Assembly (NCBI GenBank): GCA_009885995.1
Contig: VFJQ01000023.1
Span: 62,001-126,000, forward strand
Length of the DNA: 64,000 nucleotides
Source of the DNA: Verrucomicrobiota bacterium
GTDB lineage: Bacteria > Verrucomicrobiota > Verrucomicrobiia > Chthoniobacterales > Chthoniobacteraceae
Direction: 5' to 3'
Made by a program: the position numbers and the translations under genes. Positions 46,206 through 58,349 of the stretch are shown here, in pieces. The stretch's first letter is position 1. Each line of letters begins with the position of its first letter. The notes below the pieces were generated by a model. It did no database searches. It had not been told where the DNA came from and was given only the letters and a program-made list of their open reading frames with translations.

Positions 46206-46286
46206 GGTAGGGACGGCTGTCCCCAGCCGTCCGCGTGGGCGCATGGCCGAGTCGCACGCGGACCGCTGAGGACAGCGGTCCCTACC
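46206..46286. repeat. Inverted repeat with self-folding arms
   Basis: Thirty-base arms GGTAGGGACGGCTGTCCCCA... and ...CAGCGGTCCCTACC pair imperfectly across 21 bp. Each arm is itself a palindrome (GGACGGCTG/CAGCCGTCC; GGACCGCTG/CAGCGGTCC). The differences between arms are compensated inside each arm. Confidence 0.85.
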
Positions 46287-48025: not shown

Positions 48026-48100
48026 GTGAACCACGAAGGCACGAAGGCACGAAGTGAAGGTGGTGCGCAGCCTTCGTGTCTTCGTGTCTTCGTGGTTCAT
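48026..48100. repeat. Hairpin repeat, CACGAAGG family
   Basis: The 5' arm GTGAACCACGAAGGCACGAAGG... (8-nt steps) pairs with ...CTTCGTGTCTTCGTGGTTCAT. The arm sequence contains the TGA stop (complement of 48097-48099) of the upstream coiled-coil gene. It fills the 84 bp between that gene and the AAA gene. Confidence 0.88.
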
Positions 48101-52011: not shown

Positions 52012-52114
52012 GCATTCAACGCAGAGGCGCAGAGAGCGCAGAGGTTCGTAGAGGATCATTGAAGTTTTTCTCTGCGTCCCTCTGCGTCCTCTGCGCCTCT
52101 GCGTTAATAAAAAC
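52012..52114. repeat. Hairpin repeat, CGCAGAG family
   Basis: The 5' arm (CAACGCAGAGGCGCAGAGAG...) pairs with the 3' arm (...CTCTGCGCCTCTGCGTTAA) around a ~15-nt loop. Arms consist of CGCAGAG words separated by one or two bases. It fills the gap between the PHP phosphatase and folP and may include the folP leader. Confidence 0.88.
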
Positions 52115-52126
52115 CGCGCCCTCTCG

Positions 52127-53170
52127 ATGAAGCTCGTCGCGCGCGGCCGCACGATCGAGTTCCCGCGCCGCCCGCTCATCATGGGCATCGTGAATCTCTC
52201 CGCAGATTCGTTCAGCGGTGACGGAATGGACGACATCGACGCCGCGGTGGAGAAAGCGCGCGCGCTCATCGCCGAGGGCGCGGACATCATCGACGTGGGC
52301 GCCGAGAGCGCGCGCACGAATCGCGGGCCGATCAGCGAGGCGGAGGAGATAGACCGGCTGTGCGGGTTCGTGGCGAAGTGGTCAGTGGTCAGTAATCAGT
52401 ATTCAGTAATCAGTGATCAGAACGAGAGCGCCCCCGCGGCGACTACTGATCACTGTCCACTATTTACTGATCACTCCCCCCCGCCTCGTCACCCGCTCCT
52501 TTCGCTAAACACCTGGCGCCCCGCCGTCGCCCGCGCGGTGCTGCGCGAAGGCGGAGACCTCCTCAACGACATCGGCGGCCTGCCCACCGACGAAAACGCC
52601 CGCATCTGCGCGGAGACGGGCGCGGCGCTGCTCATCATGCACTCGGTCGGCGAGCCGAAGGTCGCGCACACGCACGTGGGCTATCGCGACGTGATGGACG
52701 CGATGGACGAGTTCTTCGCCGAAAAGATCGCGCTGGCCGAAGCAGCCGGCCTCCCGCGCGACGCCATCGTGCTCGACCCCGGCATCGATTTCGCCAAGCA
52801 GCGCGACGACAACCTGCGCATCTACCGCGACCTCGCCCGGTTGCACCGCTTCGAGCGGCCGATCCTCCTGCCCGTCTCGCGCAAGACCGTCATCGGCGAC
52901 GTGCTGGGGGTGGGAGCAGGGAGCGAGGAGCAGGGAGCAGGGAGCGAGGAGCAGGGAGCAGGGAGCAAGGAGCAGGGAGCAGGGAGCGAGCAGGCGGCCG
53001 GGGCCACTCCCTGCCCCCTGCCCCCTGCTCCCTGCTTCCCGGGCCACGCCCGGGATGCGGGCACGGTGGCGTGTATCGTCGCCGGGATGCTGCGCGGGGC
53101 GCAAATCTTCCGGGTTCACAATGTGCGTGCGGCCAGTCAGGCGGTGCGGATCATCGGCGCGATCGGGTGA
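52127..53170 (+). CDS. folP: Dihydropteroate synthase carrying two in-frame repeat insertions
   Basis: A 347-aa dihydropteroate synthase, which joins p-aminobenzoate to dihydropterin pyrophosphate for folate. It has IMGIVNLSADSFSGDG, ADIIDVGAESAR, LLNDIGGLP, LDPGIDFAKQ, VSRKTVIGDVLG and the C-terminal VACIVAGMLRGAQIFRVHNVR. About 75 residues in two blocks are repeat-encoded: VVSNQYSVISDQ... to ...FTDHSPP before the SLNT strand, and GAGSEEQGAGSEEQ... to ...PLPPAPCFPG in the loop before ARDAGTV. Without them the length is the usual ~270. The normal SVDT pterin-binding Asp is Asn here (LSLNTWRP), so activity is probable but altered. Confidence 0.85.
   Translation: MKLVARGRTIEFPRRPLIMGIVNLSADSFSGDGMDDIDAAVEKARALIAEGADIIDVGAESARTNRGPISEAEEIDRLCGFVAKWSVVSNQYSVISDQNESAPAATTDHCPLFTDHSPPPRHPLLSLNTWRPAVARAVLREGGDLLNDIGGLPTDENARICAETGAALLIMHSVGEPKVAHTHVGYRDVMDAMDEFFAEKIALAEAAGLPRDAIVLDPGIDFAKQRDDNLRIYRDLARLHRFERPILLPVSRKTVIGDVLGVGAGSEEQGAGSEEQGAGSKEQGAGSEQAAGATPCPLPPAPCFPGHARDAGTVACIVAGMLRGAQIFRVHNVRAASQAVRIIGAIG
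52378..52475. repeat. Heptamer-built hairpin inside folP (NTCAGTR family)
   Basis: Six tandem 7-mers in the 5' arm (GTGGTCAGTGGTCAGTAATC...) face a 3' arm ACTGATCACTGTCCACTATT... with the same words in reverse complement. The folP frame passes through it as VVSNQYSVISDQN and onward without a stop. Confidence 0.88.
52912..53042. repeat. Heptamer-built hairpin inside folP (RGGAGCR family)
   Basis: About eleven 7-mers (GGGAGCA, GGGAGCG, AGGAGCA) face a 3' arm of CTCCCTGCCCCCTGCCCCCT-type words. The frame stays open (repeating GAGSEEQ) and exits into the conserved ARDAGTV segment. Confidence 0.88.
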
Positions 53171-53478: not shown

Positions 53479-56400
53479 ATGCGCCGCCTTCTGATCGCCC
53501 TCTGTCTCGCCCTGCCTGCCGTCTCCTTCGCCCAGAAGAAGAACGACCAACTCCCGGAGCGCTCGGAGGCGGACATCCTGAAGACCGTCACCCTGCCCGA
53601 AGGCTACGAGGCGACCGTCTTCGGCAAGCCGCCGCAGGGTGGCTACCCGGTGCAGGTCAGCGCGGCCATCGATGGGACGATCTTCGTCGCCATCGACGAA
53701 AACGGCTCGCTCGGGCGCGATCGGAACACGGCGGAGCAGAAGCCCGGTAAGGTCGTCCGCATGCGCGACACCGACGGCGATGGGCACGCGGATGAGTTCA
53801 TCACCTTCTGCGACGTCGAGAGCCCGCGCGGCGTGATCTGGGACGGCGTGCCAGTAGTCCAAAGTCCAAAGTCCAAGACTGCCGAAGGCAGGTCGAGGGG
53901 GAAACATGGCGACAATCCAAAGTCCTCGCAGTCGAACGCGCCCACGCAGGGGAAGACTTTGGACTTCGGACCCTTGGACCTTGGACCCTACCGCCTCCCC
54001 GGCACGCTCTACGTCATGCACCCGCCGAACCTCACCGCTTACACCGACACCGACGGCGACGGGAAATCCGACAAGCAGGAGGACATCCTCACCGGGCTCG
54101 GCTTCGGGCTCGATTTCCGCGGCGCGGATCACACCACGAATGGCTGCCGGCTCGGCATCGATGGCTTCATCTACATCGCGGTCGGCGACTACGGCTTCAC
54201 GAAAGCGGTCGCCAAGGACGGCACCACGCTCACCAACCGCGGCGGCGGCATCGTGCGCATCCGGCCCGATGGCACCGGCTTCGAGATCGTCTCGCGCGGC
54301 CAGCGCAACATCTACGACGTGGCCGTCTCGCCCACGCTCGACCTCTTCACCCGCGACAACACCAACGACGGCGGCGGCTGGAACGTGCGCCTGAGCTTCG
54401 TCCCGCCCGGCGCGCACATGGGCTACCCGTATTTGTTCAAAAACTTCCCCGAAGACCGGCTCGACGCGCTGGCCGATCTCGGCGGCGGCAGCCCGTGCGG
54501 CGCGCTCTGGCTCGATGAACCGGGGCTGCCGAAGGGGCTCTTCACCGTCGAGTGGGGCGCGGGCGGCATCTTCTACCACGACGATCTCGTGCCCGACGGC
54601 GCCGGGTGGAAGCTGGCCGGTGTAGCGTCCGCTGTCCCAGCGGACAGTGCGCTGGGACAGCGGACGCTACAGCCCGACGGCAGGAAGACCCCGACGGTGA
54701 AGCCGAACCAATGGATCAAAATGGTCCGCCCGACCGACATGGACGTGGACGCCAGCGGCCGCCTCTACATCACGAGCTGGGAAGGCGCGACGTTCAACTA
54801 CAACGGGCCCTTCGCGGGGTATGTGCTGCGGGTGGTGAAGAAGGGGGCGGGGAAGGTGGCTGTGCTGGAGATTGCGAAGGCGAAGCCGGCGGAACTTGTG
54901 CAGCTCATCAATTCGCCAAGCGGCGTCGTTCGTCAGGCGACGCAGCGAGAATTGATTCGTCGCGGTGCGAACGAAGACGTGCTGATCGGCTTGATGAAGA
55001 TCGCGCACTCGAAAGCGCCGTTGGAAATTCGCGTGGCGGCCTTGTATTCGGCGCTGCAATCGATCCCCGCATCGAACAAGCCGCTCGAAATGTTTTTTCC
55101 GCAGATGCTCGGGCCGATCTTCGACGCGGGCGACGCGCGTGAGTTCGGGCTGCGGTTGGCGGGTGACTTTCCGAAGCGCCTCGAAGGATTTGGTTTCAGC
55201 CCCGAAATTCTCGCTGACGCGAGCCCCCGCGCCCGCGCCGCCGCGATCACCGCGCTGCGCCGGCTGCACAAGACCGACGCCGCGCCTTCCATCCTCCCGC
55301 TCGTCGCCGATCCCGACCCGGTCGTCGCGCACCTTGCCGTGCGGGCGCTCAGCGAGTTGAAGGCGGTGCAGCCTTGCCTCGCTGCGCTCGATTCCACCGA
55401 CGCCAAGGTGCAGCCCGGCGCCTTGCGCGCGCTCTACGGCATCTCCGATCCCGCCGTCGTGGACGGTCTCCTTTCCCGCCTTGGCGGCGCGAAAGGCGAG
55501 CTGCGCCGCGGCATCCTCAACGCGCTCTGCCGCCTCGCCAACCAGGACGCGCCTTACACCGACCCGAGCGTGTGGTGGGGCACGCGGCCCGATACGAGCG
55601 GCCCGGTTTACCAGCCCATCGCGTGGAGCGAGACCGACAAGATCACCGCCGCGCTCAAGACCGCGCTCGAGAAGTCCGACGCCGACGATGCGAAGTGGCT
55701 CGTGCAGCGCATGTATGCCACGAAGGTGAACTTCCCCGACCTCGTGGAACTCATGCTCGCCAAGGCCGGCAGCGACACGCCCGCCAAGCTCGAAGCCATC
55801 GAGGGCATGATCCGCGCCGACAATTCGCTCCCCGCCGAGGGCGTCGCCGCGCTGCAAAGCATCGCCACCGATGACCGGCAAGCCATCGAGCTGCGCGTGC
55901 GCGCGCTGCGGGTCTTCCAGCGCTGCGCGGAGAATGGCACCGTCTTCCCCGGCGCCGTCGCCGCCTTTGCCCCGCTCGCCGGACACGACATCGGCGACGC
56001 GAAGCTCACCGCCGCGTTCGAGGACTTCACCCGCGGCGCGCATAACGGCAAATGGGTCGGCGATTACGCGAAACATCTCACCGGCAAGGACGCCGCCACG
56101 CGCCAGCTCGCCGCGACCGTGCTCGTGAATCTGTCCACCAGCCGCGTCGGCAAGGAGCAGGATCGCGACGCCGCGAAGAAGGCCGTGGAGAAAGCCTTCG
56201 CGCAGCCCGAGCCCGCCGCCGCGCTGCTCGCCGCGATCGCCCGCACCGGCGCGAAGCCTTACGCCGAGCAGGTGAAGGCGAAGCTGAACGATCCCAACAA
56301 CGCCGTGGCCGAAGCCGCTCTCTTCGCCTTCCAAAAACTCGGCGGCGGCGACAAGCCGGCGAAGATGATCGGCGAGATGAAATACGAGGAGGTCCTCGCC

Positions 56401-56829
56401 GCCGTGCAGCGCGGTGGCGACGTGAAAGCGGGCAGCGAGATGTTCCTCAAAGCCGCCTGCATCGCCTGCCACACCATCAACGCCGACGAGCCGCCGAAAG
56501 GCCCGATCCTCAGCGCCGTCGCGAAGATCTACGACCGCGCCGCGCTGACCGAGAGCATCCTCAAGCCGAGCGCGAAGATCGCGCAGGGCTTTGAGAGCAC
56601 GTGGATCAAGACGAAGAAAGGTGAGCAGGTGGAAGGCTTCGTGACGCGCGAAGGCGGCGACAGCGTGGACATCCGCAACATCGCCGGCCAGACCGTGCTC
56701 GTGGAGAAAGCCGACATCGCCGAGCGAGGCCACCGCGACATCTCGATCATGCCCGAGGGCCTGCTCAACGCCTTCACGACCGCCGACATCGCGAACCTGC
56801 TCGCGTGGATGGAGTCGCTGAAGAAGTGA
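53479..56829 (+). CDS. PVC-type heme-binding dehydrogenase/HEAT protein with two in-frame repeat insertions
   Basis: A 1116-aa secreted protein with a signal peptide (MRRLLIALCLALPAVSFA). A beta-propeller-like PVC membrane-bound dehydrogenase domain spans ~30-475 (LPEGYEATVFGKPP, VRMRDTDGDGHADEF, PHMGYPYLFKNFP-like stretches). HEAT repeats follow (~485-980), then a C-terminal heme c domain with CIACH near 994 and EGLLNAFTTADIANLLAWMESL at the end. Between GVIWDG and GTLYVMHPP about 45 repeat-encoded residues are inserted (VVQSPKSKTAEG...). Seventeen more (VASAVPADSALGQRTLQ) come from a second palindrome. The protein probably oxidises a sugar or alcohol and passes electrons to heme. Confidence 0.83.
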   Translation: MRRLLIALCLALPAVSFAQKKNDQLPERSEADILKTVTLPEGYEATVFGKPPQGGYPVQVSAAIDGTIFVAIDENGSLGRDRNTAEQKPGKVVRMRDTDGDGHADEFITFCDVESPRGVIWDGVPVVQSPKSKTAEGRSRGKHGDNPKSSQSNAPTQGKTLDFGPLDLGPYRLPGTLYVMHPPNLTAYTDTDGDGKSDKQEDILTGLGFGLDFRGADHTTNGCRLGIDGFIYIAVGDYGFTKAVAKDGTTLTNRGGGIVRIRPDGTGFEIVSRGQRNIYDVAVSPTLDLFTRDNTNDGGGWNVRLSFVPPGAHMGYPYLFKNFPEDRLDALADLGGGSPCGALWLDEPGLPKGLFTVEWGAGGIFYHDDLVPDGAGWKLAGVASAVPADSALGQRTLQPDGRKTPTVKPNQWIKMVRPTDMDVDASGRLYITSWEGATFNYNGPFAGYVLRVVKKGAGKVAVLEIAKAKPAELVQLINSPSGVVRQATQRELIRRGANEDVLIGLMKIAHSKAPLEIRVAALYSALQSIPASNKPLEMFFPQMLGPIFDAGDAREFGLRLAGDFPKRLEGFGFSPEILADASPRARAAAITALRRLHKTDAAPSILPLVADPDPVVAHLAVRALSELKAVQPCLAALDSTDAKVQPGALRALYGISDPAVVDGLLSRLGGAKGELRRGILNALCRLANQDAPYTDPSVWWGTRPDTSGPVYQPIAWSETDKITAALKTALEKSDADDAKWLVQRMYATKVNFPDLVELMLAKAGSDTPAKLEAIEGMIRADNSLPAEGVAALQSIATDDRQAIELRVRALRVFQRCAENGTVFPGAVAAFAPLAGHDIGDAKLTAAFEDFTRGAHNGKWVGDYAKHLTGKDAATRQLAATVLVNLSTSRVGKEQDRDAAKKAVEKAFAQPEPAAALLAAIARTGAKPYAEQVKAKLNDPNNAVAEAALFAFQKLGGGDKPAKMIGEMKYEEVLAAVQRGGDVKAGSEMFLKAACIACHTINADEPPKGPILSAVAKIYDRAALTESILKPSAKIAQGFESTWIKTKKGEQVEGFVTREGGDSVDIRNIAGQTVLVEKADIAERGHRDISIMPEGLLNAFTTADIANLLAWMESLKK
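53855..53990. repeat. Hairpin repeat inside PVC-heme gene (GTCCAAA family)
   Basis: The 5' arm TAGTCCAAAGTCCAAAGTCC is made of GTCCAAA 7-mers. The 3' arm runs ACTTTGGACTTCGGACCCTT... to GGACCCTA. The host frame stays open, encoding a low-complexity loop. Confidence 0.82.
54621..54671. repeat. 51-bp perfect palindrome inside PVC-heme gene
   Basis: Arms of 21 bp, TGTAGCGTCCGCTGTCCCAG... and ...CTGGGACAGCGGACGCTACA, are perfect around a 9-nt centre. The length is seventeen codons, so the frame is preserved. Confidence 0.9.
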
Positions 56830-56830
56830 C

Positions 56831-56948
56831 GGTGGAACGCGCGCTCCGAGCGCGTTTTCTCCACACCGCGGGCGCAGCCCGCCACTTCTCCCAGTTTGCC
56901 GGCTTCGCCGGGCTGCAATGAAAACGCGCTCGGAGCGCGCGTTCCACC
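56831..56948. repeat. 118-bp inverted repeat with perfect 29-bp arms
   Basis: GGTGGAACGCGCGCTCCGAG... and ...CTCGGAGCGCGCGTTCCACC are exact complements over 29 bp, enclosing 60 bp with two smaller G+C-rich hairpins (GCGGGC/GCCCGC and GCCGGC/GCCGGG-like). It begins 1 bp after the PVC-heme stop and could end its transcript. Confidence 0.9.
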
Positions 56949-56995: not shown

Positions 56996-58192
56996 TTGCC
57001 CGAACCTCATCCAACCGCACCTCGCTGGAAACTCGCGACGCTCTTTTTCCTGAGCGGCGCGGCGCTGGGGATGTGGAATGTGAACTTCGGCAACGTGCTC
57101 CGCACGCATGGGCTCGAGCACATCATCGGCTACGCGTATGCGTGCAGCGGCGTGGCGGCGTTCATCTCGCCGCTGGCGATCGGCGCGCTGGCGGATCAAG
57201 CCGTGTCGCCGCTGCGCATCGTGCGCTGGCTGGCGGTGCTGACGGCGGGCGCGCTCACGCTGCTCTTCGTGGCGATCGAACGCGGCTGGGGCGTGATGCC
57301 GGTGCTCGCGCTCGCGCAGCTCCAGGCGATCTGCGCCGCGCCGATCTTCGGCCTCTGCACGAGCATCGTGATGTCCGAGCTGGACGACGCTGGCCGCGAG
57401 TTTGGCCCGGTGCGCTCGCTCGCGACGCTCGGCTGGATGGTCGCGGGCTGGATCGTGAGCTTCATCCTGAATGCGGATACTTCGACGCTGAGCGGCTACG
57501 CGGGCGCGGTGGCGTGGCTGGTGACCGCGGCATTCACCTTCGCGCTGCCCTCGCCGGCGCCGATCGCACGCGAGGGCCCGCGCGATGTCTTCGGGCTCTC
57601 GGCGCTGGCGCTGCTGCGCGATCACAATCACCGCGTCGTCTTCCTCGCCGCCGCGCTCTACAACATCCCGATGGCGGCGTTCTATCCGTTCACGCCGATC
57701 CATCTCACGCAGCTCGGCGTCGATCACGCCACGGCGGCGATGAGCATCGGACAGATCAGCGAGTTGATCTCGATGTTCCTCCTCGCCGGGCTCATCGCGC
57801 GGCTGCGGCTCAAGCGCGTCTTCCTCGTCGGCGTCGGATTCGGTGTGCTGCGTTTTGCGCTTTGCGGGCTCGATACGAAGGCGTGGCTGATCACCGGCAT
57901 CGCGCTGCACGGGTTTGCGTTCACGCTCTTCTTTATCACCGCGCAGATCTACCTCGAGCAGCGGGTCGATCCCGCGATGCGCGCCCGCGCGCAGGCGCTG
58001 CTGAGCGTGATGCTCTCCGGCATCGGCGCGCTGATCGGCTTCCTCGGCAATGGCTGGTGGCGGAACGCCTGCGCGACACCGCTCGGCACGGATTGGCCGC
58101 GGTTCTGGTTCGGCGTGAGCGGAGTTGCGGCGCTGGTCGGCGTGTGGTTTGCGTTCAGCTACCGTGGGCGGGCAAAAACGCAGTCATCCTGA
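56996..58192 (+). CDS. MFS transporter, nucleoside:H+ symporter-like
   Basis: A 398-aa major-facilitator protein with about twelve helices. TTG 56996 is the only suitable start ahead of the first helix (LATLFFLSGAALGMWNVNF). The pattern (LYNIPMAAFYPFTPIHL, SIGQISELISMFLL, RLRLKRVFLVGVG, FITAQIYLEQRV) resembles the NupG/nucleoside:H+ symporter group and related LacY-like MFS proteins, so it may import nucleosides or oligosaccharides. The stop codon (TGA 58190-58192) is part of the arm of a repeat element. It lies between two secreted degradative genes. Confidence 0.75.
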   Translation: MPEPHPTAPRWKLATLFFLSGAALGMWNVNFGNVLRTHGLEHIIGYAYACSGVAAFISPLAIGALADQAVSPLRIVRWLAVLTAGALTLLFVAIERGWGVMPVLALAQLQAICAAPIFGLCTSIVMSELDDAGREFGPVRSLATLGWMVAGWIVSFILNADTSTLSGYAGAVAWLVTAAFTFALPSPAPIAREGPRDVFGLSALALLRDHNHRVVFLAAALYNIPMAAFYPFTPIHLTQLGVDHATAAMSIGQISELISMFLLAGLIARLRLKRVFLVGVGFGVLRFALCGLDTKAWLITGIALHGFAFTLFFITAQIYLEQRVDPAMRARAQALLSVMLSGIGALIGFLGNGWWRNACATPLGTDWPRFWFGVSGVAALVGVWFAFSYRGRAKTQSS

Positions 58193-58349
58193 GCGGAGCG
58201 CCGCTTCGCGCAGCGAAAGGCGCGGAGTCGAAGGACCCCGTAATCCGTCGTGAGACTTTCGCTGCGGGAGTCTCAGGCAGTCTGCACGGGGTCCTTCGAC
58301 TGCGCACCGCGCCGCCTTCGCCCACCGCGGCGCTCCGCTCAGGATGACT
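58182..58349. repeat. 168-bp inverted repeat (CATCCTGAGCG family)
   Basis: Arms AGTCATCCTGAGCGGAGCGC and GCGCTCCGCTCAGGATGACT are complementary, and inner segments (GTCGAAGGACCCC / GGGGTCCTTCGAC) pair too. It includes the stop of the MFS gene and fills the gap before the sulfatase. Confidence 0.88.

Follow-up and report, generated by a model that had tools for sequence, protein, structure and literature searches.

The window, that is, the whole stretch of 64,000 nucleotides that was analysed, contains a gene for a PVC-type haem-binding protein that harbors two palindromic blocks. The span 53855-54671, singled out in a preliminary description of this DNA, takes in the two blocks together with the normal coding sequence that separates them. 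The features discussed below are as follows (positions in the window):

52376..52498 (borders approximate), plus strand: dihydropteroate synthase insert 1, made of AGTAATC-type heptads, in frame; a gap relative to the solved homologue 5jq9
52913..53038 (borders approximate), plus strand: dihydropteroate synthase insert 2, made of GGGAGCA heptads and an inverted arm, in frame; a gap relative to 5jq9
53479..56829, plus strand: PVC-type haem-binding protein gene, host of both blocks; 1116 aa, with DUF7133, HEAT repeats and a C-terminal cytochrome c / TIGR02603 region
53849..53996 (borders approximate), plus strand: block 1, an in-frame insert of about 45 codons net relative to the nearest orthologue; without counterpart in any of the 21 orthologues aligned across this site
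53857..53876, plus strand: left arm of block 1, a GTCCAAA heptad array, GTCCAAAGTCCAAAGTCCAA
53878..53915, plus strand: 38-bp dispersed repeat in the loop of the heptad hairpin (ACTGCCGAAGGCAGG...GCGACAA), 13 genome copies
53955..53988, minus strand: right arm of block 1, GTCCAAA-type heptads on the opposite strand, read directly and from the fold
54621..54671, plus strand: block 2, a REPIN of 51 bp and 17 codons that encodes VASAVPADSALGQRTLQ; without counterpart in any of the 21 orthologues aligned across this site
54622..54645, plus strand: first REP hairpin, GTAGCGTCCGCTGTCCCAGCGGAC
54648..54670, minus strand: second REP hairpin, inverted, GTAGCGTCCGCTGTCCCAGCGCA

The open reading frame of the host gene is not interrupted over its full length, and both blocks lie in it in frame and without a stop, as the preliminary description had claimed. 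Pfam analysis of the host protein detected DUF7133, HEAT repeats and cytochrome c. The proposed identity as a PVC-haem gene was borne out by the TIGR02603 haem-binding domain of NCBIfam (101.9 bits, cut-off 68.15). The N-terminus was matched by TIGR02604 in two pieces, with a score (84 bits) under the cut-off of 122.2. No solved homologue was found for the PVC domain.

Of 40 genomes from the host's family, 33 gave a match to the host protein; the majority of the better matches are interrupted around query residues 123-176 and 376-410. Twenty-two orthologue loci were aligned, the nearest being about 60-70% identical; one of them begins downstream of site 1 and another ends before site 2. All 20 orthologues that cover both sites lack both blocks, an observation that identifies both blocks as insertions. 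In close relatives, site 1 reads GVIWDG-PKGDGPG-VLYVMHPP or GVIWDG-PSGAGPG-TLYVMHPP. At site 2, cutting out exactly TGTAG...CTACA gives LAG/PDGRK, which is in keeping with the LDG/PNQG of the relatives, and no target duplication is evident upon this removal. Homologous, non-palindromic sequence of the same length at these places in orthologues had been named beforehand as an outcome that would speak against insertion; none of the aligned orthologues contains it. Altogether, the alignment supports the view that both blocks were inserted in an already existing gene. Orthologue length varies at both sites, which suggests that the encoded peptides may form surface loops.

Block 2 is a REPIN made of two inverted, GTAG-tagged REP hairpins. 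The REP half reads GTAGC-GTCCGCTG-TCC-CAGCGGAC, with GTAG located 5' of a short hairpin. The element had been described as a perfect 51-bp palindrome with 21-bp arms and 17 codons. Its length and number of codons stand; the perfect arms are, however, 22 bp long and surround a 7-nt centre, and since 3 of the 51 positions are unlike the reverse complement of the element, block 2 is not a perfect 51-mer. Relevant observations on its family can be summarized as follows:

(i). The REP family has 23 copies in the host genome (at most 1 mismatch) and none in 39 family relatives. Contig C74 carries 14 of the 23 copies in no more than 5 kb, around a gene for a REP-associated tyrosine transposase (RAYT). 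This gene contains a Y1_Tnp domain (C74:41880-42083) and scores 98.3 bits against the NCBIfam RAYT model NF047646, whose cut-off is 80. An in-frame REP pair of the same family (LGQRGVASAVSAEDALGQRTLQ) lies inside the transposase ORF itself (L035:1228-1959). The RAYT on contig C74 is the most likely mover of block 2.

(ii). In 856 kb of sampled genome sequence, 122 GTAG hairpins were observed, compared with 17 in shuffled sequence. Singleton GTAG hairpins without family sequence were left out of the REP count because about 17 are expected by chance in the sample. When GTAG hairpins form close pairs, 36 of the 39 pairs are inverted, with GTAG outward.

(iii). A second Y1_Tnp gene (L033:1071-1894) is flanked by a different GTAG family, GTAGCCACGGC/GTAGCCGCGTCG. 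Hence, at least two pairs of REP and transposase coexist in the genome.

GTAG-tagged REPs and REPINs with RAYT transposases have been described (PMC3733652, PMC3116915), and GTAG REPs inside ORFs have been found above all in the verrucomicrobium Opitutus terrae and have been compared with Rickettsia palindromic elements or RPEs (PMC3733652). With its GTAG tag, short hairpin, inverted REP dimer, many copies and RAYT gene flanked by copies, the family of block 2 resembles those elements; judged by these sequence traits, and as O. terrae has in-frame GTAG REPs, the REPIN of block 2 is an additional member of an already known kind. Unlike known GTAG REPINs, the REP sequence found here is particular to this genome within its family, a copy pair lies inside the RAYT ORF, and some loops hold a 38-bp repeat. 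RPEs are palindromic repeats found in frame in genes, where they add extra residues to working proteins (PMC3733652), and the blocks described here resemble them in being in-frame palindromic inserts in protein-coding genes. Assignment of block 2 to the RPEs was considered and discarded, as the tag is GTAG and not the CGTC reported for RPEs (PMC3733652), a comparison at the level of the tag. The host also differs: in contrast to RPE bearers, it has a free-living-type genome of 5.9 Mb.

Preservation of the reading frame is seen across this genome. In a coding-flank test of the 856 kb, a heuristic test on a sample partly picked around REP hits, 12 of 12 REP-family elements located inside genes were in frame and open and none was shifted, whereas chance alone would put a third of them in phase. 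The idea that the insertions are kept because they are in frame and tolerated is supported by these 12 elements and by the orthologues without blocks, and it applies to the genome at large and not to this gene in particular. The two palindromes are of unrelated kinds, one being a REPIN and the other a heptad hairpin in which a repeat is nested. The gene adjoining the host gene encodes dihydropteroate synthase (DHPS profile, 211.8 bits) and carries the two heptad inserts listed above, which are palindromes that its solved homologues lack. The MetRS gene (L120:13352-15094) has two in-frame repeat inserts relative to the solved homologue 3vu8, one of them made of GGGAGCA heptads, and in-frame repeats are also found in RibD, MnmA and a TatD-family protein of the same genome.

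Block 1 is a nested composite in which a GTCCAAA heptad hairpin holds a 38-bp repeat in its loop. The hairpin was correctly recognized as real and in frame in the preliminary description, but its loop contains a separate dispersed repeat (53878-53915) that had been overlooked. This repeat, ACTGCCGAAGGCAGGTCGAGGGGGAAACATGGCGACAA, has 13 genome copies (at most 3 mismatches) and was not found in 39 relatives. Nine of the 13 copies lie in REP hairpin loops. The nesting becomes apparent when flanks are read against intact REPs: in eight copies the left flank is GTAGGGACCGC or a variant and the right flank is TCCCCAGCGGTCC or a variant, as they are in intact REPs, for instance GTAGGGACCGC-TG-TCCCCAGCGGTCC; in the ninth, the REP has the opposite orientation. 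We read this arrangement as the 38-mer taking the place of TG in the REP loop; such a replacement would add 36 bp net and thus keep the frame. In block 1, the 38-mer is hosted by the heptad array and not by a REP loop. Among the small dispersed repeats of Nostoc, reportedly described by Elhai et al. in 2008, a very small repeat is said to be nested in another. The 38-mer inside a heptad array is a similar case; its length and sequence are different, and most of its copies lie in REP hairpin loops.

Cyanobacterial STRRs are heptamer direct repeats, with 7-bp units in tandem. Block 1 also has 7-bp units in tandem, but dispersal over the genome is not observed: the GTCCAAA tandem array occurs in one place only of the host genome, which discards GTCCAAA as a high-copy family there. 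For this reason we only claim that block 1 works like a heptamer (STRR-like) repeat. Other heptads, such as GGGAGCA, do recur in the host genome.

The explanation that we favor, with a probability of about 0.85, is that both blocks are non-autonomous, hairpin-forming repeats that were inserted in an existing gene and have been kept because they are frame-neutral and lie at places of variable length. The PVC-haem gene would already have existed when such repeats entered it. Block 2 would have been moved by the RAYT on contig C74; block 1 would be a GTCCAAA heptad hairpin that also received the 38-bp repeat in its loop, both the heptad arrays and the 38-mer being presumably mobile. The blocks would persist because the frame is kept, no stop is in frame and the sites vary in length among orthologues; the encoded peptides may be tolerated as surface loops, and purifying selection, rather than an insertion bias, may account for frame and orientation. 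Against this explanation, the GTCCAAA array is single-copy in the host genome, no enzyme is linked to it, and even the nearest orthologues are no more than about 60-70% identical.

GTCCAAA arrays are also found beyond this genome. Within the phylum, 9 of the 288 genomes have them, in one case in an isoleucyl-tRNA synthetase gene, and an exact 24-mer scan of public genomes yielded at least 118 GTCCAAA stretches in many phyla, although some MAG names among the array-bearing genomes may be mis-binned. Pfam analysis of 40 ORFs covering listed arrays matched 30 to a family; PheT, ValS, ArgS, SecA, the DnaE PHP domain, MnmE, SMC and MetH are included, and in at least one matched ORF (L248) the domain recognised does not include the array. 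In all 30, the array is in the GTCCAAA sense and reads SKVQSPK, and none of 7 antisense array ORFs tested gave a Pfam match. GTCCAAA is free of stops in all six frames, like half of all heptads, so stops cannot account for the single orientation of the arrays. Read in the reverse sense, the heptad would yield the hydrophobic FGLWTLD. The simplest reading is selection at the protein level; an insertion bias is an alternative. TAACTGA heptamers have been described in Beggiatoaceae, Cyanobacteria and Bacteroidetes, distant phyla, with a mechanism that is not known (PMC4679880). GTCCAAA arrays are likewise tandem 7-bp units scattered over distant phyla. The unit is a different one, however, and while TAACTGA sets are chiefly intergenic in Beggiatoaceae, GTCCAAA arrays frequently occupy conserved genes in frame, and always in one sense among those tested.

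The rival that survives best, unlikely in our opinion, is that replication slippage expanded short chance repeats into heptad arrays where they stand and that the arrays do not move, in which case block 2 alone would be an insertion. The single GTCCAAA array of the host genome fits this possibility, as do the arrays made of other heptad units and the fact that most arrays elsewhere lack an inverted arm within 260 nt (17 of 118, among the stretches listed, have one). One would not expect, however, that an identical heptad should recur in many phyla, that block 1 should have inverted arms and a nested repeat, or that no seed of an array should be visible in orthologues.

Insertion of presumably mobile repeats has also to be weighed against selection for function, either as useful peptide loops or as mRNA hairpins that regulate the gene, a possibility that we find quite improbable. 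The hairpins predicted for the blocks are very stable (about -48 and -52 kcal/mol), and some heptad inserts are common to related genomes at one place, for example in PheT (two Pyrinomonadaceae) and in MetH (two genomes), an indication that heptad inserts can persist. Nevertheless, neither block is present in any aligned orthologue, elements of this sort occur in unrelated genes and between genes, and the codon scores of the inserts are poor, with a negative value between flanks that score as coding. Chance is excluded as a source of such palindromes, since 49 with a score of at least 16 were observed in 458 kb of the genome and none remained after codon-block shuffling. An artefact of assembly or binning is hardly credible: the assembly is a draft of 181 contigs and palindromes are easily misassembled, but the blocks sit within a 155-kb contig with the frame intact, many independent copies in many genes show one pattern, and the heptad is also present in named isolates.

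A search of the open-licence literature found no reports of in-frame heptad arrays in other phyla; within that literature, one-sided in-frame heptad arrays and a loop-nested 38-mer look like an undescribed variant. A tentative extension, possible rather than probable, is that mobile DNA compatible with protein coding is present here in two undescribed kinds: heptad arrays that cross phyla and settle in frame in essential genes, able to survive in any frame because all six are stop-free and with selection keeping only the hydrophilic SKVQSPK sense, and a 38-bp element that replaces two bases at a fixed place of REP loops and occasionally enters heptad arrays. The observations imply that bacterial housekeeping enzymes gain about 12-50 foreign residues from tiny palindromic or heptad repeats with the frame intact, and that such gain is far from confined to Rickettsia and Opitutus. 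Should the heptad result hold generally, odd stretches such as SKVQSPK and GAGSREQ in annotated bacterial proteins would be marks left by a single class of DNA repeat not recognised so far, with a bearing on annotation and on the origin of new protein loops. The loop-nested 38-mer offers a small, testable case of a hairpin-targeting element.

Additional elements were detected in the course of the analysis. Within 13 kb around the blocks, five more strong palindromes of several families (46206-46286, 48027-48099, 52018-52105, 56831-56948 and 58182-58349) are apparently intergenic or located at gene ends. Two intragenic palindromes (L080:2347 and L118:19574) have high inner codon scores and were dismissed as ordinary coding repeats. 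In another genome, an SMC-like gene (L263:3093-4481) has, next to its GTCCAAA array, a repeated SRRGAEARREEEEE stretch that probably represents another family of in-frame repeats. Lastly, three Ser/Thr-kinase-like genes (L078:2245, L135:6840 and L136:18436) carry three different palindromic elements in the same loop, before LPGGRIP/LPDGRIP.
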